A stretch of 64,000 nt of DNA from Siniperca chuatsi (Eukaryota; Chordata; Actinopteri; Centrarchiformes; Sinipercidae): assembly GCF_020085105.1 (NCBI RefSeq), contig NC_058063.1, positions 7,777,422-7,841,421 of the forward strand, read 5' to 3'. Positions 19,032 to 55,918 of this stretch are shown here, one piece after another. The number at the start of each line of letters is the position of its first letter. Position 1 is the stretch's first letter. The translations under genes and the position numbers were made by a program. The notes below the pieces were generated by a model. The model was not told the DNA's origin. It searched no databases and saw nothing but the letters and a program-made list of their open reading frames with translations.

Positions 19032-20120
19032 CAGTGGGTACGGAAAGTATTCAGACCCCTTTAAATTTTCCACTCTGTTTCATTGCATCCATTTGCTAAA
19101 TTCTCATTAATGTACACTCAGCACCCCATCTTGACAGAAAAAAAACAATGTAGAAATTTTTACAAATTTATTAAAGAAAAACTGAAATATCACATGGTCA
19201 TAAGTATTCAGACCCTTTGCTGTGACACTCATTTAACTCACATGCTGTCAGTTTCTTCTGATCCTCCTTGAGATGGTTCTACTTCTTCATTGGAGTCCAG
19301 CTGTGTTTAATTAAACTGATTGGACTTGATTAGGAAAGGCACACACCTGTCTATATAAAGACCTTACAGCTCACAGTGCATGTCAGAGCAAATGAGAATC
19401 ATGAGGTCGAAGGAACTGCCCAAGGAGCTCTGAGACAGAATTGTGGCAAGGCACGGATCTGGCCAAGGTTATAAAAGAATTTCTGCAGCACTCAAGGTTC
19501 CTAAGAGCACAGTGGCCTCCATAATCCTTAAATGGAAGAAGTTTGGGATGACCAGAACTCTTCCTAGACCCCCAGCCAAACTGAGCAATCGTGGGAGAAG
19601 AGCCTTGGTGAGAGAGGTAAAGAAGAACCCAAAGATCACTGTGGCTGAACTCCAGAGATGCAGTAGGGAGATGGGAGAAAGTTCCAGAAAGTCATCACTG
19701 CAGCTCTCCACCAGTCGGGCTTTAGTGGCCCGACGGAAGCCTCTCCTCAGTGCAAGACATGAAATCCCGCATAGAGTTTGCCAAAAAACACATGAAGGAC
19801 TCCCAGACTATGAGAAATAAGATCCTCTGGTCTGATGAGACCAAGATTGAACTTTTTGGCGTTAATTCTAAGTGGTTTGTGTGGAGGAAACCAGGCACTG
19901 TTCAACACCTGCCCAAAACAATCCCAACAGTGAAACATGGTGGTGGCAGCATCATCATGCTATGGGGGTGTTTTTCAGCTGCAGGGACAGGACGACTGGT
20001 TGCAATTGAAGGAAATTAATTACATTAATGAGAAATAAAAACTTTTTGATTTTAGCAAATGGCTGCAATGAAACAGAGTGGAAAAATTTAGAGGGGTCTG
20101 AATACTTTCTGTACCCACTG
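19032..20120 (+). mobile_element. Tc1-like DNA transposon, internally deleted
   Basis: Inverted ends starting CAGTGGGTAC match across the element, and TA target duplications flank it at 19030-19031 and 20121-20122. The left side also has the second, inner repeat around 19,160-19,220 (IR/DR arrangement). The right inner repeat is missing because a deletion removed the last part of the transposase and most of the right subterminal region. The element lies between the converging 3' ends of dctn1 and pced1a. Confidence 0.95.
19401..20019 (+). pseudogene. Tc1 transposase remnant
   Basis: The frame starts at ATG 19401 and shows the paired-type helix-turn-helix region (GQGYKRISAALKVPKSTVAS) and the WSDETK motif carrying the first catalytic Asp of the DD34E triad. 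It cannot make an active enzyme. There is a stop at codon 11 (19431), small indels shift the frame between about 19,680 and 19,760, and the deletion after about 20,015 removes the second Asp and the Glu. Confidence 0.9.
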
Positions 20121-41367: not shown

Positions 41368-44300
41368 TTATATTGTAATGTCATCTAAATCCCTGTCTCC
41401 ATTGACTCCACTGACAGGGCGGATGATAAGTGGTGATTTGTTGCAGCCGCTGTCACTCATATCTGGGTTGAAAAAGGGAAAGATGGCGTCAGTGAATTGG
41501 AACTGTGTAAAGGAATAGATGTGTGACTTAGCCTCTGCCTCGTAGAAGGACACCGTCCCGTCCTCGTAATCCAAAAACACCCCAACAACCTGCGGCCTCT
41601 GAGAGACACACAGCAGCTCTGCCTGTCCTGCACATGCCCGGTACTCACTGCCCTTCCTCAAACAAATAGCCCAATAACCGTCCTCTGGACTCAGTGTGAC
41701 CAATCCCTTCCTGTTGACTGACTGTCGAGCCACACCCAGGTCCCATGCTGTTTTGTCTCCCACGTCTACCTCCCAGTAGTGCCTCCCTGTGGTGAAACCC
41801 TGCATAGCAAGAGAGGCTCAGGTCACTGGGACTGTTCATTTCTCAGAGAGTGAAGCAGAATAGACATAATATCCCTACAGTGATAATCACATACAAACCA
41901 CATCTTTATTTACCCTGGTGCCAAGGACACATGGTGCTGTGTCAAAACGCTCTGGTAGGTCCACCAGGTTCTGTTGAACATTTCCATCCCAGACCTGTCT
42001 CCTATCCTCCGATATAACCAGCCAAGGGTTGGCTGTCCTGGGGTCCAGATGAACATCAACTGGTAGACAGACATAGTTTATATGGAACTTTAACTTCATT
42101 ATCCTCTTTCTTCTAAGATTAAATTATTATTATTTATTTGTGGTTTCCATCATTGAGGCATCCAGAAAAATACTGTAACAAATCCTTGATGAAAAGTCAC
42201 TAAATCAGTTTCTCTCAGTGTTACAAAGGCAGGTAATAGGAAACAGGACAAAAGATATAACTATAGGAGAGAGAGAGACTGTTATTGACATTGTTTTACT
42301 GTCTAACTCCAACTGTACCTGCATACTGCTGCATCTTCTCATGCTCTGTAAGTTAATAAGAACATATGATCGAAAATGAAACAAACAACGTACAACAACG
42401 TACAACGATTGTATTCAATCTGCGATCATGACATTAAATATAAGTTGCTGTTTTATCGCAGAATGTAGTGATGCTGACGAAAATTCTTTTTAGAAGTTGA
42501 CCTTGAATGGAGAGGTTCTTTAAAGCTGATTGAAGCTGCTGTTCAATGTTAGCCACCGCTCTCCTTACAATCCCCAAACATGTGTCTGAATGGACGATGA
42601 TGCCAGAGCAGGCTTTGGCAGATGGAGGAGAACTCAGAGCTGGAAACCTCTGACACAAAGAAGGCAAATAAGAGATTGTGAATTTCTATTTTTTTAGAAT
42701 GCTCTTTGGCATCTGTTTCTACAGTGGATTTCTCCCTGTCTGACTATCAAATATCAAATCTCTTGCTCAACTGCTCCAACCTTACCTGCAGAAGATGGAG
42801 GTGGTCCTCAGTGTGAGAAAGCTGCTCCATCTCACTTCTCTTCCTCTCCAGCTCTATGATTTCAAGCTCCAGCTCTGTGATGAGTATCTCCGCCCTCTGC
42901 TCTGCTGCTGCCTGCTTCCTCTGGATCATCTCCACCAGCTCAGCCTGACTTCTCTCCATGGAACGAAACAGAGCGGAGAAGACCTCCATGCTTTCCACTA
43001 TGTCCCTCTTTGAGCATTCCTGAAGACATTGGATGTTCGAGCTTCACTGAGCAAAATGATGTACTATATGTGCAGAGTTTGATACTAGAAGACTGTTTTC
43101 ATGTTCATCTGCTGAAGGAGGCAAGTTTCTCTGTGCTCAACTTAAATCTGAGTTTAAGACGTGTATATATGAGCATGATTTTGTGATCACAACTAGTGTG
43201 GAAGCCAATCATTGTCCAATTTGCAGCTTACACAAGTGTGATGTGGAAACTTGAAACCTCCAGTGCACATAAAACGTAGGATACACCCTCTGTCCAGCAG
43301 TCAAACTTTTGAAATGAAAACTATTTGCACATTCATAGATTCTGGATTTTTTTATGAGGGAGAAGGAGTGGATGTAATTTAAAGATTTTTAACTATGTAA
43401 TTGAACTGTATTTGTAGGAAAAACATCAGAAATTCACACATCTCACAAATTATTATTGAAAGATTATTTTTATATGTCTTAAAACATGGAAGGGATCTTT
43501 AAGTAGAAGCAATAACAACAATACTAGCAATACTTACTACAAGTGATCCTCAATAGCAATAGCAGTTTAAATAGTAGTACTAGTATAAATAAATACAAAT
43601 AGATTCCAAGCAGAATAATGATATATTAATATATATTTTCAGATGTTTTGGGACTATAACTGCAGTAATACCAATACTTTTTTTCTGCTATGCACACTCT
43701 TTTTTAATGTAAGTTTTTCTTGTGTGAAAAGCGTTTGTTGCATGTGTCCAGCCTCATTTCTTAGATTCTTGTAGGCTGTTTTAACTGCTACTGCAATGGC
43801 TCGATTGCAATGGCTCGATTTTTTTTTTTTTTTTTTTTTTGCTGTTTTGTGATCTTATGTCAACTCACTTTGCTGAGCTCCACAGAGTGTTTGATCTCCT
43901 CCACTTTCTGCAGTCTGCCCTGGATCATCTGCAGAACATCAGCCTCAGTCCTTTTCATCTGAGCCTAAACATCAGAACAGGAATTAAAACCAAAACTGGA
44001 ATCAAAGTCCAAAGGCTGCCAATGTATCTGATGGGATGATGGGGAGTTTAGGACCTCACCTTCTTCTCCTGACTCTCTCGCTCCACTGGGACGATGTCGT
44101 GACTGCGGTGGTCGGTCTCGGTGCACAGCACACACACACACCTCTGGTCGCTCCTGCAGAACAGCTCCAGGAGCCTTTGGTGCCTTTTACACATCCGGTT
44201 CTCCAGCGTTGCCACAGGTTCGATCAGCTTGTGATTCTTCAAGGTGGCAACTCTCAGGTGTGGCTCCAGGTGACTCTCACAATATGAGGTCAGACACACA

Positions 44301-44629
44301 AGGCAGGATTTCAGGGCCTTTGTTTGCTTTTTCACGCATACATCACAATATATGAATTTTCCTGCCATTGACACCACGCCATTCTGCCTTTTCGCTCTGA
44401 TCTGCTCAGACATTTCCTTGGCAAAGGAGTTTTCGCAAAGCTCTGGGCAACCCTCAAAGACCGTCTGACATTTGGGACAGCTGATGGCAAGGCTGTCGTC
44501 CCAGTGTGATGTGATGCAGGTGAAGCAGAAGCTGTGACCGCAGGGGATGGAGACGGGCTCAGAGAAAACATCCTGACAGATGCAACACTGAAACTGCACG
44601 TCTGACAGGAGTATGCTGGGGGAGGTCAT
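41368..44629 (-). CDS. TRIM-family E3 ubiquitin ligase (RING, B-boxes, coiled coil, PRY-SPRY), complete
   Basis: Predicted ubiquitin or ubiquitin-like E3 ligase of the large fish TRIM/PRY-SPRY group (TRIM16/TRIM25/TRIM39/bloodthirsty-like); I cannot assign a one-to-one orthologue. Exons, transcript order: 44629-44060, 43964-43869, 43019-42786, 42649-42502, 42345-42319, 42059-41914, 41799-41368; 550 residues. The first exon codes a C3HC4 RING (about 15-55, from CICQDVF to CPKC), a B-box1-like CxxC region and a B-box2 ([12 protein letters not shown]). The next two exons are coiled coil. The last two give PRY ([14 protein letters not shown]) and SPRY ([17 protein letters not shown]). This is the usual exon plan for the group. 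Key RING cysteines and histidine are present, so ligase activity is plausible. SPRY domains in this group often recognise pathogen or self ligands. Confidence 0.9.
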
Positions 44630-45211
44630 GACCTCAGAAATAAAGAAAGGTCAGTGTTAACTGATTATGAATAAAATTAATCATTTACATTCTGAGTTAC
44701 AGAGGAAATGTGTTTTGGTAACATTAACTATCACAGAGACATTTACAAAGCATTCAGAATTTTTCAGAGCTTTTGTCTTCATTGTTTTTAATACAGGCAC
44801 TGTAAGTACTTTTATTTCAGCCAGAAACATCGTAACTTCCTTATCATTAGCTTCAAACAATTCAAAGCTGTCCACTGGCCAAAGTCCACCTGCATGGTCA
44901 CATGACTCAGCCTCTCACTCACTCACAGAAACTCATTCTGTAATCTTAGCTTGAAACATGGATTGAATACACCCATGAAAAACAAACGTGCAGGCTCCTT
45001 TCCACCCAGTGTAATTCATTATCCTGCAAGTGTTTATAATGTACTGCACACCCCCACCAGGGGATGAAGACTAATGGCTTCAAATATTAGTCCCTCCTAT
45101 ATTCCATTTTACCTGCCTGCCACAAGACAGCAGAAACATCATTGAAATTATTGTATCTGTCTAATCAAAATGCTGACACATACCCATCTGATATTTTGTC
45201 TTGGTCTTACC

Positions 45212-45350: not shown

Positions 45351-45913
45351 TGTATTGGAGTGAGCAGCAAAAAGGAAGTACCTGACTAAAGCTCAGTCAC
45401 ATTAATCACTATACCCATTCCAAGGCTCTTTATTTCAAATGGACAGATGCACATACTATGTATATTGTCACACATTATCAAAATACTGTTACAATAATAT
45501 CTTAACACAGTTTAACACACATTTCTAAGCAGGGATAATTTGACTATTAATAAAAGATAAGGTTAGTACAGTATATTTGTTTTGGGAATGATCCCTACTA
45601 CAGTTGTAGCTACTTTAAGTGCATACATTTAAGTTGTATAAAGTTCTTTCACAATTCAAAACTAAAACAAAACTAAATAAAAATCCTGGATCAAGTGACC
45701 TCTACTTGACGTGCCATGTCTTATTTTAAGATTCTCCAAACAGGTCAAACTACATTTCACTGGAATCTGATCAAATTTCTTTCCTATCATTAATTTTTTT
45801 ACATTCACTTCAAGGAAAGCAATTCAAAATGTGAAAAATCTAAATAACTTGAAAAAAAAAAAAGGTTTTGTATCCATTCTCCTGCATTTCATCTCGTCTT
45901 TCCTCCACTGATC

Positions 45914-46004
45914 TCATGTCTCAACAGATCGAATTTTCAGGGAGAACAACTGTGGCGACAATCCGTATTGTCTGAAGAGCTAGATTTTTTTTTAAAAACC
46001 GCAC

Positions 46005-46046
<42 letters not shown>

Positions 46047-49000
46047 CAGTAGATTATTTGAATTAAGTGAATACAAACTAGTCATGAAAAAAATGAACTG
46101 AGCAGCAGTTTGTCTCACCTCCTCCAACGCACTCTGTATGTCCGAGTCAGACAGTCGAATAAATGACGTTAATCTGACGTTTAATCCGACAACATAAACT
46201 GTTGACATAAATACACAATATGTTACATAAAATAATACACATGATAAAATCAATGGATAATATATTCCATTAATATAGCTAAGTATTCAACATCATTTAA
46301 AATATAATAACCATAAATATTGTCTTTACATCAGCTTATACTATTAGTTATTATATTTAATATATACTGTATAATAATTAATAAAAAAAATGCTTTAACG
46401 AAACAAACAAATTTATGAAACACATCAAATGTCTTTACCAAAAAAGTCTAACATGTGTTTTCTGTACACAATACTACTTTAAAAAACTTGTTAAATCATG
46501 TTTAAATTTTATGTATTTATAAAATTGTAAAGTAGGGTTTACATTTATTCTCTGGTTTCATATAAATATAAGCAGACTAGTTTCTCTTCTAGCAACAGTT
46601 AACGCAGACCCAAACACATAATTAATAATGAAAAACAAATATAAGAAACACAAGAAAAAAATAATATAGTTGTGTTAAGAATATCAATTACAATCAAGCT
46701 GATTTAAAATATATAAATACATATATGAATTGGGCACTCAAGGCAAAGGCTCAGACCATGTAATGAATGTAACAAATGTATATACTTACAAGGCTCTTTT
46801 GTTGTAAGACGCAGTCAGAGATATTTTGGAAAGATGGAAAGAAGAATATTGATGAATATGATGAATTGATATTTTGTTAAAGGCAGAATAAGTAAGATTT
46901 TTTGGTTGCTGTTTGTAAACACATAATTCAAAGTTGCCCCCCCATCTTCTGTTTCATGGCAGTTACGTTCTAAAGCCCAAAACAAAATTGCCCACACCTC
47001 CGCACAACCCTGCTAGAAGGAGTCACATTGAATGGAGCTGAAGCCAGCTTCATCCTGTCCGCTCTGTGGCCTCTCAGACAGAGCAGAGGGGGGACGGAGA
47101 CAGCGACATGACACCACTGCCCAAATGTTGACGTTCAAACACATCCCAAACACAACAAACTAATAAGAAACTAAGAAAATACAGACAGAGGGCAAAGTCT
47201 CTGCAGATACAGACACTGCCACACAGTTCTAGTGGGTCGTAAGTGATGATTGAGAGGATTTTTTTCTGTATGAGTCTATACATTGTTTTTTTTTTTAGGA
47301 AAATGCTACTTATTCTGCCTTTAATATCTCACGTTTAATTTTCTCTTGAATGTAATTTAAACTTTAGTTGCATGATATCATAACTGAAAATAAAATAAAA
47401 CCCATTTTGAATTTATACAAAAAAGAAAAGTAAAAATAATGACAAGGAAAGGTAAGGTAATGTTAACAATGTCCTTTTAAATGTGCCTGAACAATGCTCA
47501 AAAAGAAACAAGGAACAAGAAAAGGCAACAGGAAATTAACTTAAGTACATGAAGGATGAAGGAGGAAGCTTTTCAAATGCAACAAGGAAATACCTACTAT
47601 TGCTGCTGGTAAGCACTATTAAATGTCCAGTAGTTACAAAGTGTCCAAGTTACAAGGTAAAAAATAATCAGCTTTCACTAACATTTTGTTCAATTTAAGC
47701 TACTGCTGCTGCAAACTGGTTTTGCTGGTACTACCTTGCAATCATTAGGTAGTGGCCACCACTACATTGCAACTAAAGTCATAAACCTTTAGTTAGCCAT
47801 AAAACCATTTCTGTAATTCACTAGCCATTCAAATGTATATGTCATCATCTAGAATATTGTCATGTTTAGAAAAGAACAATAGTATTATGCTTGGTTAAAT
47901 ACACATTGATGAAGTTAAATATCTCACCAGTGACTGCAGTAATGTTTACTCCACTGCTTCTGACGTTCTCAAACACAGAGAAGAGAGTGAATGTGTATTT
48001 AGTTCCAGCAGTGAGAGATGAGACTGTGTGAGTTACTGGTCCATCTCCATCTGGTGCAGTGATGTAGATCTCTGTACCATTAAACTGGAGAATATAGCTG
48101 ACATTGTTGTTCACTTTATTCCACTGCAGAGTGATACTGGTCTTATCTTGTCCTGTTGATCTGAAGCTTCCTGCGTTTGGAGGAGCTGAGATAGAAAATA
48201 TAGCAGTGACCAATTTTATCAAGATGGGATTGTCTTATGTGTTTCGTGCCAGGGAGGAATGTGAAGTCAGTCGGGCCTCTCAGATTAGGTGATCACCAAA
48301 TGTTAACTACAACCCTAACACAGGTTCATATAACAGAGCTGTCTATTTAAATGTTTCCTTCATACATCTGTGGCTCTGTCTTCTTTACTAATGCTGATAA
48401 TTAAAGTTATTCACTGTCCAGCAACTGCCCTCATTTCAAAATGGATTCACCATCCCAGCTTTCACCCACATGTTGTTCACTTTAGGTTATTGCTGCTGAC
48501 AACAGCTCTCTGTTGCAATTGCTGTTGCTAACTGATATGGCTGCTGCTATCTGGAATTGACTGGCTAGTGGTGGCCACAACATTGCCACTTAAATTTAAC
48601 CATGAGTCAGCAATAAAACAATTTGTATAATACCCTAGGCATTTAAACATATATTTATGATCTAGAATGCTGTCATATAGCTACCAGAAGAATACAGTTA
48701 TGCCTCATTCATAATGAACTGATGAAGTCAAATGTCTCACCAGTGACTGCAGTAATGTTTACTCCACTGCTTCTGACGTTCTCGAACACAGAGAAGAGAG
48801 TGAATGTGTATTTAGTTCCAGCAGTGAGAGATGAGACTGTGCAAGTTACTGGTCCATCTCCAACTGGTGCAGTGATGTAGATCTCTGTACCATTAAACTG
48901 GAGAATAAAGCTGACATTGTTGTTCACTTTATTCCACTGCAGAGTGATACCGGTCTCATCTTGTCCTGTTGATCTGAAGCCTCCTGCATTTGAAGGAGCT

Positions 49001-52000
49001 GAGATAGAAAAAGAAAAGGGAATGAATTTATCAACAAAGGACTTTGCGCGAAAAAATTATTCATACTCGATCTGGCTGTTAAGGTTACACAATTTTGTAT
49101 CCCATTGTTAACAAAAACTATGAGGCTATGAGAGATATAATTGATTAAGACACATTTTTGTATTAGCAAAAATGTTGTGTCACATTTTATACCTAACCAC
49201 ATCACAGTGTGTGTTTGACAAGAATAATGTAATGAACAATAATTGCGGATTAAAACTTCAAAAGTACTTTAAGTTGGATAACTATGGGAAAGTGAAGGAG
49301 TTTAATGTGCTGGCCAATATAGTACATGATTTGAAATGCATATACTGTGCAAGTAGAGAAGCAGGACATTCAGTGACACAATATTAGACATAGCAAATAC
49401 ATTTTAGTTTTACACTGTCACACTGACAAGAATGTGATGGCTTACTGAGTTACCACAGTGGATCTTTTTGAAATCAAAATCCTTACCGGTAACTGCAGTA
49501 ATGCTTACTCCACTGCTTCTGACGTTCTCGAACACAGAGAAGAGAGTGAATGTGTATTTAGTTCCAGCAGTGAGAGATGAGACTGTGTGAGTTACTGGTC
49601 CATCTCCATCTGGTGCAGTGATGTCGATCTCTGTACCATTAAACTGGAGAATAAAGCTGACATTGTTGTTCACTTTATTCCACTGCAGAGTGATACTGGT
49701 CTCATCTTGTCCTGTTGATCTGAAGCTTCCTGTATTGGGTGGAAGTGAGACAAAGAGGACAACTTATGAGACAAAAATGACATCAAATGACAAGAATTGT
49801 TCATTTTTTAATTCATCAGCTGTTTGATGCAACACATATATTGTACTTTGGTACATCATGTTGACATAATATCACTGACATAATTACTATTCCCAATGAT
49901 GATGCACCACCACTTGTAAATCAGTTGATAGATTTACTTTTGTACAGTAGGTTCAATCTATTGCATACTTTTTCAGATCAAACAGTAAGTAAGCTATAGA
50001 TGGTTAATATTTTGGTGGTTTAGAATTTTTTTTTAATGGAAAGTTTAAACAAGGGAGCAAAGATATTACTTCGCTTAGTAGGAGATCTATCAGAAATAAA
50101 CACCCATATAAACATACACAAGTAGAAATTAAGGGCAAAGGGAAAAGAAGAAACAAAAAATAAATCAAATAACACACACACACACACACACACATACACA
50201 CACACACACACACAGGCATCTTATCCAGGGTTAAGCACAGCAGTGTTTTGGTTACACTGGATTACTAAATTGACCTTAAGTTACAGATAGCCAGTCAGTA
50301 AAAGATCCCCATGTAAGCATACATTGATCAAGCTTGTTAAGTAGAGTATGTCACCCTCTCATAAGCAGCCAATTGAGCCATTGTTGTATATAGATGGTTT
50401 TGTTTTGCCCATTAGTCCGTTTTAGTTTAGTGTTAAACATAATCCAATTTCTATCTTAACTGATGTTGAGACTGTCAATCACTTTTATTATAATTGTTCT
50501 GTTTTTCTTGTTCTGAAACATTCATTTTAATAGCAGATTTCTGCAACGAGAGTATTCATTGTATTTGACTTGATTTTGGTGGTTCTGTGCCTGTTGATGT
50601 GCCATTTTTATAGATGGCAAACATTCACCTTACAGACAAGAAAGTAATTTCTTTAGGAATGTAATTTTTAAATACTGTGCTATTTACAACATGATCACTA
50701 GATTTCCACAGGTTTATCATATAGCCTTCTGAACAGCATTTAGCCTATGCAGAAGAACAGTAAAAATACATAACGTTCTTGTTTATGATTTAACAGACAT
50801 GCCCATGTACACAAATTCACAAATCCAAATTCAACTGTTTTCTTTCAATGTTAATTTGATCTTAAAGGTACGATATTTGCTAATATATAACGGAAACTGT
50901 CTTAATAATCCAACAATGAATCTCTATACAGTATGTAAGCAGAAATAAGATACATTACCTGTTGTGTAACAGATGAACGGGAAAGTAAGGGAGCAGTTAT
51001 TATCGGACCAGCGTCCTGAGTCATTGAATGCCATAGTGACACACTGCTCTGTGCCAAGGTCTGGTTGCCCGCTGGCCCAGTGTCGAAACAGAGAGGTGCT
51101 CCCATCAGACCACAGTTTTTCCCGGTGCAGACCGATCCACACAAAGGACCCAGCTGCCAGGTTTGCGATGATGTCATTTTCTGTCTGATTTCGTATACTG
51201 CAAGAGAAACAGTAGCATATATGCGTCAAGGTTGAGTTGAGTATAAGTGAAGAGGTAAAACATAACAGACAAAAAAATAAAAATCCAACACTGCAATGCA
51301 TTGTTAGTGATTGTTGGGAAATATAATATTGTACCTTATGTGATTATTTAAGGAACGTGTTCAGCCATCTGGACAACGTAGCCATTTACAAACACTACTT
51401 ACAATCAGTGCAACATAATCACCTTACAATTAAGGTATACTATCACTATACTTCTATTACTAATACTGCTTGTAATCATAACAATTTCATTATCATCATC
51501 ATCATAATACCTGATAATACCATAGTGCCTTACAGTCTTAAAACCAAGGATGAAAAATACATAACTTATAGGCAAAGCAATAAAAAAAACAAAAAACAAA
51601 TAACCAGACACAGGAAGGGAGGGATTAAAATGACAAAAAGGATAAAATAAAACAGTAGGACAGATATTCCAATCCAATTGGGATTCCAATCAACTGTCAC
51701 AATAATGAATAAACCTGATTTCATCAACAGAACAGATCAAAACTTAAGTAGTTGGTTCAGCACTGTACTATTGTATGTCTTGGAGTCATCATTAGTGCAC
51801 ACTGTACCTGGCTAGATCGACATAATTCTCCCTGCAGAATCTCTGAGCTTCAGTCCAATTCAAATTTGTGTCGACCTTTACAAAGGATGATGTGCCATTT
51901 ACTATACCTGGAAATATATTGATGAAAAAATGTTATTAACCATGTCAGGATGGACTTGTAGACAACACTCATTTTGCTACAATGTATGCAGGAGTGTCAG

Positions 52001-53913
52001 TGAAACAGTAGGAAGTAGGAAGATCTAAAGATCTGGATTCAGTGGGATACAAAATTGCTCATGTCACCTCAATACAACAAATACATAGAAGTTGCGAGAT
52101 GTTTCTGGAAATGCTAGAAGATCTATTTAGCCCTTTCTTACACTATAAGAAAACTCACCGCTGTAGCACACAAAGCTTCGTTGGTTGTCGCAGTTAACGT
52201 CTTCCCACGTGCCAAAATATGGACTCCCACTCAAAAGCTCCACACAGTACTGTTGTCCGCCCAAATTATTGGGCTGTGCAGTATGCCAGTTTCTAAACTC
52301 TGTCTCTCCTTCATCATAGAAGCTGCTGTCATTCAGGGACCATCTCCAGCTGTTTATCAAATCATCATAGAGACCTATCCAAGCATTGCCTGTTCAAAAA
52401 GATGTTCATTATATAAAACAGCTGGAATTAAAATAGTGCTGAATTGACCTAAAATGTAAATTACTTTACTGAACATCCCTTAAAGTATGTGTCTCCTCTA
52501 TATTTTATTGAGGGCCTTTGTTGTTCTTTTTCATTACACATTATCATATTTTATATTTTTTTCTAATAATAGCAAGCTTGTCAAAAACTTGGATTCTGTT
52601 GTGTATGTATATGATTATACATATATATACAGTACAGTATGTTTATGTTACGTATATGATTCCAATATCAAGAGCTTGCCTGTGTAATTCGATGTGGTGC
52701 TGACAACGGCACTGACGCCATTTGTGTTTTCTACGGTGGCCAGGTCAGTGTAGACCTTTCTGCAGTAGATCTGAGCTTCAGTCCAGTTCACTGGTGTACT
52801 CACAAAGTAGTACTGATGAGTTTGGGCGGAGGCATCATTGACCAGTGCTCCTAAAACAAAGCATATTTGTTTTTTTATTACGTATTTGTATACAGCATGT
52901 AGACTTTCTATGTTCTTTTACAGTGAACATGAAGAGGCACTATACATCAGGTGGGTTAAATGGTATATGGACTGTACTTGCCTTTCTAGTGTTCCGACCA
53001 CTCAAAGCACTTTACACTACATGTAAATTTACATTCACCCTATTCATACACTGATGGGATGCTGCTCATCAGTACAAAGAAACTAACTCATTCACACACC
53101 AAAGGCACAGCCTTCAGGAGCAATTTGGGGTTCAGTATCTTGCTTGAGGACACTTCAACATGTGGGCTGGTGGAAGCCGGGATCAAACCGACAATCATCC
53201 TATTAGAGGACGACCTGCTCTGCCTCTAAGCCAGAGGTTCAGCTGGGGTGTGGGGTTTTACAATACCTTTTCCTCATTGATGAGATTTTTGCCAGATTCA
53301 GTAAATCGGTGTTCACTGATCACCACTGACAATAAAAAGAACCAGTGCAACTACTAGGTGAAACTGAGCAGGAAACATGAACTGTTAAGGCATTGGACTC
53401 CAGTAAGATTAAAAAAAAAGGTTAATCCTCCAAAAAGCAAAAGTGAATATGAAGAAACATCTGTATGACCGTGTGTATGATTACATTAGTAGTGTTCAAA
53501 ATAGGTTAAGACATACAATACACACCTTCCTCTCTCCCTATTGTATTATCTATTTTAGTTTCTTTGTCAATATACCATAATCTTCATTTATGACTATGAT
53601 CAAAAATCCAGTTACCCTGCAGAAAACAAACTTTTCTACCCTGCCCTAAAACCTGTACAGGAATATATGTAATTGATATAGTACATATATTCCTGATTAC
53701 AACTGATGAATTAACAAACATTAAAAGAAGATTTTTTGTCATTTTAAGCATTTTCTGTCTTAATAAGTCAGTTCCACCTAATGCAGAAATACTTATATGC
53801 AGTACCGAGTGAAGACTGCTTAAGCTGCAATTGCTTTAAATAGACAAACAGCCAGAATAATCAAACAAGAGGCACCAACCTGTGAGCACAAAGATGATCC
53901 GCCAATAATCCAT
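45914..53913 (-). CDS. Secreted protein with two C-type lectin domains and three fibronectin III domains
   Basis: I do not know a named orthologue. Exons, transcript order: 53913-53880, 52850-52680, 52389-52159, 51907-51808, 51197-50959, 49729-49487, 48998-48741, 48185-47928, 46198-46119, 45979-45914; 1,680 bp, 559 residues, phases consistent. Residues 1-20 look like a signal peptide (MDYWRIIFVLTGALV). CTLD1 (about 24-145) has QPN and WEDVNC instead of the usual EPN/WND. CTLD2 (about 146-258) has QPD and WSDNNC, a galactose-type signature. Three FN3 domains follow (259-339, 340-425, 426-511), each one phase-1 exon. The tail GLNVRLTSFIRLSDSDIQ...QYGLSP resembles the C-terminus seen in many fish C-type lectin proteins. 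No transmembrane segment is seen, so it is probably secreted. The intron after 52680 begins with GC. Sugar binding and an immune role are inference. Confidence 0.82.
46002..46045. repeat. (CA)n microsatellite
   Basis: CA repeat just upstream of the last coding exon of the lectin/FN3 gene. On the coding strand it is a GT run before the acceptor. Confidence 0.9.
46877..47324. mobile_element. MITE with TTAAAGGCAGAATAAGTA ends
   Basis: The left end TTAAAGGCAGAATAAGTA is repeated, inverted, at the right end (TACTTATTCTGCCTTTAA). About 450 bp, non-coding, inside the lectin/FN3 gene intron 46199-47927. It is a familiar type of non-autonomous DNA transposon in percomorph fish. Confidence 0.8.
47690..48185 (-). 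repeat. FN3 tandem duplication, unit 2 (exon plus downstream intron)
   Basis: This unit holds the third FN3 exon (47928-48185) and about 240 bp of intron after it. It aligns with 48480-48998, with near identity in the exon and clear similarity in the intron (a CTGCTG-rich block, GTGGCCACxAC and ATCTAGAAT anchors). It is one half of an intragenic tandem duplication. Confidence 0.8.
48480..48998 (-). repeat. FN3 tandem duplication, unit 1 (exon plus downstream intron)
   Basis: This unit holds the second FN3 exon (48741-48998) plus intron, homologous to 47690-48185. Both exons are 258 bp and phase 1-1, so the duplication adds one whole domain without changing frame. Confidence 0.8.
49487..49729 (-). 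other. First FN3 exon, with a shifted splice acceptor
   Basis: The exon is 243 bp, against 258 bp for its two sister exons. The sisters start after TCTCAG; here the homologous place reads TCTCAC, so that acceptor is gone. The next AG, after CCAATACAG, is 15 bp further in and keeps phase 1, so the domain loses five residues of its first strand but stays in frame. Confidence 0.75.
50172..50215. repeat. (CA)n microsatellite
   Basis: CA repeat with one TA interruption, in the intron between CTLD2 and the first FN3 exon. Confidence 0.9.
52975..53235. repeat. SINE-like or LINE-derived fish repeat
   Basis: Blocks such as CAAAGCACTTTACACTACATG, GGAGCAATTTGGGGTTCAGT and CTTGCTTGAGGACACTTCAA are a diverged copy of a repeat I recognise as widespread in teleosts. 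It lies in the first intron of the lectin/FN3 gene. Confidence 0.65.
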
Positions 53914-55239: not shown

Positions 55240-55918
55240 ATCACCTCAGAAACATTGCAAAAATCCGATCTAATCTAAATCTCAGTGATGCAGAAACTGT
55301 TGTGCATGCTTTTATCTCCTCACGCCTTGATTATTGTAACAGCTTGTTCACTTGTCTTAATCAAAAAACTTTGACACGACTGCAGACTGTACAAAACTCA
55401 GCTGCTAGGCTGTTAACCAGGACCAAGAAGTAAGACCACATCACACCTGTTTCAGCCTCCACATTGATTTTAAGATCTTGTTAATTACTTTTAAGGCTCT
55501 CCATGGCCTGGCTCCAGACTATATTTTAGACCTTGTAATCCCTTATGAACCTTCACATAGTTTGAGATCTTCGGGCAGGGGTCTCCTGTCTGTTCCTGAG
55601 TCCAGGATGAAAACTAAGGGGGACAGAGCTTTTGCTATCAGGGCCCCGAGGCTCTGGAACAACTTGCCCGAAGAAATTAGGTTGTCCGAGTCAGTGTCTT
55701 TGTTTAAGTCTCTTCTCAAAACACATTTTTATCTGAAAGCAATTCCCGATTTTACCTGAACTGGCTGTTTATTTTATTGCTTTTGTGTATTTTATTTCTT
55801 TATATTTCATCATTCACTGTGGTATTTTATTTCTCTTGTTGTGAAGCACTTTGTATTTTGTTTTGATAAGTGCTCTATAAATAAAGTTTTATTATTATTC
55901 TTATTATTATTATTATTT
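55240..55918 (+). mobile_element. 5'-truncated non-LTR retrotransposon (L2-like), C-terminal end
   Basis: Translation shows the typical end of a fish LINE polyprotein: SSRLDYCNSLF, LQTVQNSAARLLT, then KALHGLAPDYI, LWNNLPEEIR and SLFKSLLKTHF. One frameshift lies near 55,430, so it is dead. The 3' part has GAAGCACTTTGTATTTTG, ATAAATAAAGTTTT and an (ATT)n end. Clade assignment to L2 is tentative. Confidence 0.85.

Follow-up and report, generated by a model that had tools for sequence, protein, structure and literature searches.

Ten exons on the minus strand of the stretch of Siniperca chuatsi DNA analysed here (the window, 64 kb; C22:7777422-7841421 in a genome of 719 Mb and 65 contigs) join into an open frame of 559 codons and a stop. 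We consider that they probably form one single, intact gene. Its product would be a soluble, secreted fish lectin with two C-type lectin domains (CTLDs), in which a phase 1-1 cassette of fibronectin type III (FN3) exons of the receptor-phosphatase type follows CTLD2. An earlier reading of the same DNA (the first-pass annotation) had proposed such an architecture, with an ancestral fish-lectin tail at the C-terminus and a domain combination without a named match. The receptor-phosphatase kind of the FN3 exons, the phase 1-1 cassette and the separate relatives of the lectin part were borne out, whereas the ancestral tail proved weak and the novelty was unsupported. The features are as follows, with coordinates of the whole window and the basis of each assignment in brackets.

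53880..53913, minus strand: exon 1, with the start codon and the greater part of the putative signal peptide, MDYWRIIFVLT (exon joining, hydropathy)
52680..52850, minus strand: exon 2, remainder of the putative signal peptide and N-terminal part of CTLD1, with a GC donor (exon joining, Pfam)
52390..52679, minus strand: intron 2, within CTLD1, 290 bp, GC-AG (sequence)
52159..52389, minus strand: exon 3, remainder of CTLD1 with QPN and WED (exon joining, Pfam)
51808..51907, minus strand: exon 4, first part of CTLD2 (exon joining, Pfam)
50959..51197, minus strand: exon 5, remainder of CTLD2 with QPD, GTEQC and WSD (exon joining, Pfam, genome search)
49487..49729, minus strand: exon 6, FN3-1, with a shifted acceptor (exon joining, Pfam)
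48741..48998, minus strand: exon 7, FN3-2, holding the sole cysteine outside the CTLDs, residue 392 (exon joining, Pfam)
47928..48185, minus strand: exon 8, FN3-3 (exon joining, Pfam)
46119..46198, minus strand: exon 9, first half of the C-terminal tail, less certain (exon joining, tail tests)
45914..45979, minus strand: exon 10, second half of the tail and stop codon, with a run of A before the acceptor, less certain (exon joining)
45429..45434, minus strand: AATAAA, candidate polyadenylation signal about 480 nt past the stop; further AATAAA occur within the gene (sequence)

The exons were joined by a script from 53913 to 45914. The nine junctions have the phases 1, 1, 1, 2, 1, 1, 1, 1 and 0 in order, and all are in phase. 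Every exon and junction of the 559-residue protein was recovered at the place annotated before. The donors are GT at eight of the nine introns, and intron 2 has a GC donor (ACACAG/GCAAGC) and is a GC-AG intron, a feature absent from the first-pass annotation. According to this structure, the ten exons are predicted to be spliced into one mRNA.

In the joined protein, Pfam detects Lectin_C in two stretches (E=1.2e-35) and fn3 in three stretches (E=1.3e-15). These results agree with the two CTLDs of the QPN and QPD types annotated before, one motif being present in each, and with the three FN3 domains. Scored alone, FN3-1 is just over the Pfam cut-off of 25 bits (26.2), and FN3-2 is just under it (24.3). 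The protein has 16 N-glycosylation sequons. Of its nine cysteines, each CTLD holds four and FN3-2 the remaining one (residue 392). By hydropathy only, the N-terminus is hydrophobic (mean of 2.7 for the best 9-mer), and the top hydrophobic 19-residue stretch, located at the FN3/tail junction, has a mean of 1.56. In PDB, both the whole protein and CTLD2 alone match best to CTLDs of the mannose-receptor family (LY75, PLA2R and MRC2), and a search of the whole protein against viral contigs gave no match. Proteins of the mannose-receptor family are membrane-anchored and have eight to ten CTLDs, whereas the window protein has two CTLDs, and the few exon ends that were read show the introns at other places.

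A genome search with one FN3 unit gave 13 matches among 19 scored candidates, namely the three window exons and ten exons on contig C20. The ten C20 exons form one array (C20:13.964-13.969 Mb) and are 36-65% identical to the query. Eight of them show 60-65% protein identity to FN3-3, and the array shares with the window exons the end FENVRSSGVNITAVT and the position of the acceptor. About 3 to 5 kb past the array, on the same strand, there are two open stretches matching Y_phosphatase (E=2.3e-16 and 2.3e-13), and between the array and these stretches another fn3 is found under its cut-off. The exons of the C20 gene were left unjoined; because of their order and strand, we infer that C20:13.964-13.974 Mb is one receptor-type tyrosine phosphatase gene, presumably R3-like. 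Since all ten matches outside the window lie in this array, which is followed by Y_phosphatase exons, the window cassette is assigned to the receptor-phosphatase type. The label comes from the search of the own genome, because the PDB matches alone give no support for it: chitinase A1 and fibronectin are the best matches of one FN3 unit (E ~1e-4), and RPTP-F has an E of 0.48. Within this genome the receptor-phosphatase kind of FN3 was thus annotated correctly, and exon joining gives phase 1-1 for the FN3 exons, as expected for a phase-1 cassette. The C20 gene combines ten matching FN3 exons with phosphatase exons. No phosphatase part was found in the window: when it was searched with four pieces of that gene, two from the phosphatase and two juxtamembrane, nothing above noise was obtained (best E 0.02). 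A duplicate of the receptor phosphatase filling this region was rejected on the same result.

In the 40 kb around the C20 array (C20:13.950-13.990 Mb), no CTLD match was found. A dual-CTLD gene is located at C20:13.937-13.940 Mb, about 24 kb from the FN3 array on the opposite strand, with a C2-domain gene between; any role of this neighbourhood in the shuffling is speculative. The fifth C20 FN3 exon (L023:6022-6375, C20:13.966 Mb) departs from the usual frame near its end, and its match stops at residue 78 of 86. If it is phase 1-1 as its sisters are, this exon could be skipped without harm.

The lectin half had been given an ancestry separate from that of the insert, and its relatives were indeed found away from any such FN3 exon. 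Genome-wide, Lectin_C gave at least 121 matches (150 of 322 candidates scored), and CTLD2 as query gave 66 matches (all 113 candidates scored). The eight best CTLD2 matches outside the window show 41-47% identity. Among the best are those on C22 at 14.996 Mb (45%), 15.004 Mb (43%), and 17.276 and 17.290 Mb (44 and 47%), and elsewhere at C21:20.594 Mb (42%) and at C9:5.360 and 5.378 Mb (46 and 43%). Many CTLD matches form neighbouring pairs as judged by eye, and CTLD1 shares 53% identity with the first domain of a dual-CTLD gene on C21. A tree was made of 20 CTLDs, two from the window and 18 from twelve other loci picked from the stretches read. The window CTLD1 is nearest to the first domains of the paralogues and CTLD2 to the second domains. 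The labels of first and second domains are clustered (as low a value in 0 of 200 shuffles), yet the forks of the window domains are weak (46 and 23), and the first domain of C9:5.36 sits among second domains. Four extra stretches taken from the Lectin_C table contained distant CTLD matches only. According to these comparisons, the lectin half appears to belong to a dual-CTLD family, whose nearest copies are 41-53% identical to it.

Both window CTLDs are split by an intron, whereas those of the paralogues opened here are not. The site of intron 2 is uninterrupted in all six paralogue CTLD1 domains read, and its junctions are spanned by an 8-bp direct repeat, ACAGGCAA; at the other eight introns such repeats have 1-5 bp. 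Because of the GC-AG ends, the direct repeat and the absence from the six paralogues, gain of intron 2 by insertion of an element is considered possible; no terminal inverted repeats reaching the intron ends were found. Intron 4 (51198-51807) splits CTLD2 at DLAS/IRN, and the eight paralogue CTLD2 domains read are uninterrupted. A further dual-CTLD copy at C22:17.3028-17.3042 Mb has a stop codon inside the matches to each domain, with the second domain in two pieces, and is perhaps a pseudogene.

The combination of CTLD and FN3 is on record, although it is not characterised as far as literature searches reach. Zelensky and Gready (2004; PMC514892) listed a Fugu 'CFN3: Protein with CTLD and FN3 domains' as an unclassified table entry; the entry, model ANUFR2G00000000101, is a draft-genome prediction in the group that the authors rate as lowest in quality (PMC514892). 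The first-pass annotation took the lack of a named match as novelty, and this conclusion falls, because the Fugu entry was already listed in 2004. Like CFN3, known from its table entry alone, the window gene would encode a fish protein in which CTLD and FN3 are combined. Among the titles and abstracts covered, no further fish dual-CTLD FN3 protein is described, and CFN3 with a CTLD appears in PMC514892 alone. The same paper describes group F1 as soluble dual-CTLD proteins (Fugu FDC-F1 to F7 and zebrafish cDNAs CAE17649-51), with members having two or three CTLDs. By that description alone, the window protein resembles group F1 in its two CTLDs with four cysteines each, its fish origin and its fast-evolving family, and may share the predicted solubility, whereas it differs in having three additional FN3 domains. 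Because of these three fn3 stretches, we regard it as a variant of the dual-CTLD lectins and not as a plain F1 member. The novelty is modest. The present analysis adds the Fugu precedent, a gene of the donor type within this genome, the exon-confined homogenisation described below, the shifted acceptor of FN3-1 and the doubt about the tail. The case offers a checkable example of exon shuffling in which both gene families involved can be identified within one fish genome: this genome still contains the donor-type gene as well as lectin relatives that lack the insert, and the repeat exons stay alike as the introns diverge. It helps to explain new architectures among fish lectins and does not define a new protein class.

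In the mechanism that we propose, the FN3 array would have been taken from the receptor-phosphatase lineage by exon shuffling, the direction and date of which we infer. The array would then have been multiplied by tandem duplication, and its exons may have been kept alike by gene conversion. In the protein, the two CTLDs would bind sugar ligands, and the FN3 units may act as a short stalk that spaces the lectin domains from a partner or a second chain. The lone cysteine of FN3-2, Cys392, may link two chains. The most likely use would be that of a secreted pattern-recognition lectin in innate immunity or mucus. Another use seems very improbable: a soluble mimic whose lectin end holds a glycan or microbe and whose FN3 end binds or competes for the ligands of receptor phosphatases, conversion keeping the repeated unit.

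Several observations weigh against the reading of one intact lectin gene; they concern the calcium sites, the tail and the join between the two halves. The canonical calcium site 2 consists of an E/Q-P-N/D motif, a Glu before the third cysteine and WND. The corresponding motifs are QPN, QQYC and WED in CTLD1, and QPD, EQC and WSD in CTLD2, and we take both domains to deviate from the canonical site at some positions. Sugar binding is uncertain, because both CTLDs are without some of the canonical calcium ligands. By rule, the QPD motif goes with galactose-type ligands. CTLD2 would perhaps bind ligands of this type, and for CTLD1 the QPN motif leaves the ligand type undecided.

The 48-residue tail matches no Pfam family over the cut-off and nothing in PDB, and a search of the own genome with it returns no more than the two tail exons themselves (2 of 2 candidates). 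The acceptor of exon 10 is poor. Moreover, the tails of the paralogues differ in sequence, their likeness to the window tail is faint, and an anchored alignment with them was equalled by 530 of 2000 shuffles and is thus without significance. It is possible, although we do not favour it, that the gene is real and the tail is not. The gene would then end after FN3-3 or in another terminal exon, exons 9 and 10 would be a chance pair, and our gene model would have to be corrected. On the other side, the phases of the tail exons (1 in, 0 out) equal those of all six paralogue loci read. Among the five last exons found in the paralogues, three have Leu as their first residue, two of these exons being near-identical copies, and two have Ile. 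On a profile of the paralogue tails, exon 9 scores best among the 19 candidate exons after FN3-3, with 3.8 bits, compared with 3.4 bits for the best of 128 background candidates from six other stretches. In the five-tail profile test, 25 of 5000 shuffles were as good as the window tail. The AATAAA about 480 nt after the stop is also consistent with a real end. The tail tests are not free of selection, because the tail had been picked by eye by the earlier reader. Exons 9 and 10 are likely, but unproven, to be part of the gene. Of the ancestral fish-lectin tail annotated before, the matching phases and the rank of exon 9 remain, whereas the genome search and the anchored test fail to support it.

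As to the join, the dinucleotide that is the acceptor AG in FN3-2, FN3-3 and the C20 exons is AC in FN3-1, whose own AG lies 15 nt downstream of that place, with the phase kept. If the intron after exon 5 or the one after exon 8 were retained, short, stop-terminated ends would also result. The ratio of nonsynonymous to synonymous divergence (omega) between C20 and C22 exons is 0.40-0.46 (three pairs) with bootstrap limits of 0.20-0.87; it shows constraint somewhere between both arrays, not necessarily in the window, where neutral drift is possible. Within the window array, the nonsynonymous divergence (dN) is about equal to the synonymous one (dS) in two of three pairs (dN/dS of 0.039/0.036 and 0.042/0.034), and the third has 0.022/0.056. 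The lack of the usual acceptor in FN3-1 and the omega values would fit two units that are not spliced together: a dual-CTLD gene ending after CTLD2, or in an unseen tail, and a stranded receptor-phosphatase FN3 fragment downstream on the same strand. The 1.2 kb intron between CTLD2 and FN3-1, with an AATAAA at 50489, fits such an arrangement as well. We regard it as unlikely. The four pieces of the C20 gene find no counterpart in the window, each of the three FN3 exons has an open frame with phase 1-1, and FN3-1 stays in phase despite its shifted acceptor. In addition, a gene with CTLD and FN3 was predicted independently in Fugu, as a table entry (PMC514892). In drift simulations with 0.3-0.15 substitutions per site, a single exon stayed stop-free in 13-32% of runs; because conversion ties the copies together, the openness of all three is no more than suggestive.

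For a single gene with a converted cassette, the likeness of the FN3 exons ends near the exon edges. The exons of FN3-1, FN3-2 and FN3-3 show 96-97% DNA identity. The flanks of FN3-1 compared with those of FN3-2 and FN3-3 show an identity of 0.45-0.52, which is the random level (40 random intron pairs: mean 0.46, standard deviation 0.04, maximum 0.57). Between FN3-2 and FN3-3, the upstream flanks reach 0.58, barely over the maximum of this null, and the downstream flanks 0.70. Differences at fourfold sites among the three window pairs number 2, 2 and 0 of 40, and the comparison of the fourfold sites of FN3-2 and FN3-3 with their downstream intron gives a Fisher p=8e-6. The dS between C20 and window FN3 exons is 0.54-0.78 across 21 pairs, made of seven C20 exons and three window exons; three C20 exons were left out, two as divergent and one as short. 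Synonymous sites are thus not frozen, and strong synonymous constraint was ruled out as the cause of the FN3 identity by the same values. These results indicate, at the level of sequence, an exon-confined homogenisation of the FN3 exons. Duplication followed by gene conversion that hardly passed the exon edges would be the simplest account. The C20 array contains fresh tandem copies, with exons 94-100% and flanks 60-100% identical in the five pairs compared. A very recent exon duplication or an assembly error, to which the near-identical window exons and the fresh C20 copies might point, is quite improbable as the source of the identity, since the diverged flanks around FN3-2 and FN3-3 and the random ones around FN3-1 are expected from neither.

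Elsewhere in the window, a piece of a Tc1/Sleeping Beauty-type transposase is located at 19434-19817, and the C-terminal end of a fish LINE reverse transcriptase, assigned by eye and without a Pfam match, at 55409-55756. Downstream of the lectin gene on the same, minus strand, the annotated TRIM/PRY-SPRY neighbour was found, with RING and B-box at 44051-44650 and SPRY at 41371-41817. Beyond it lies an RPGRIP1-type gene, recognised by its first C2 and C-terminal domains.

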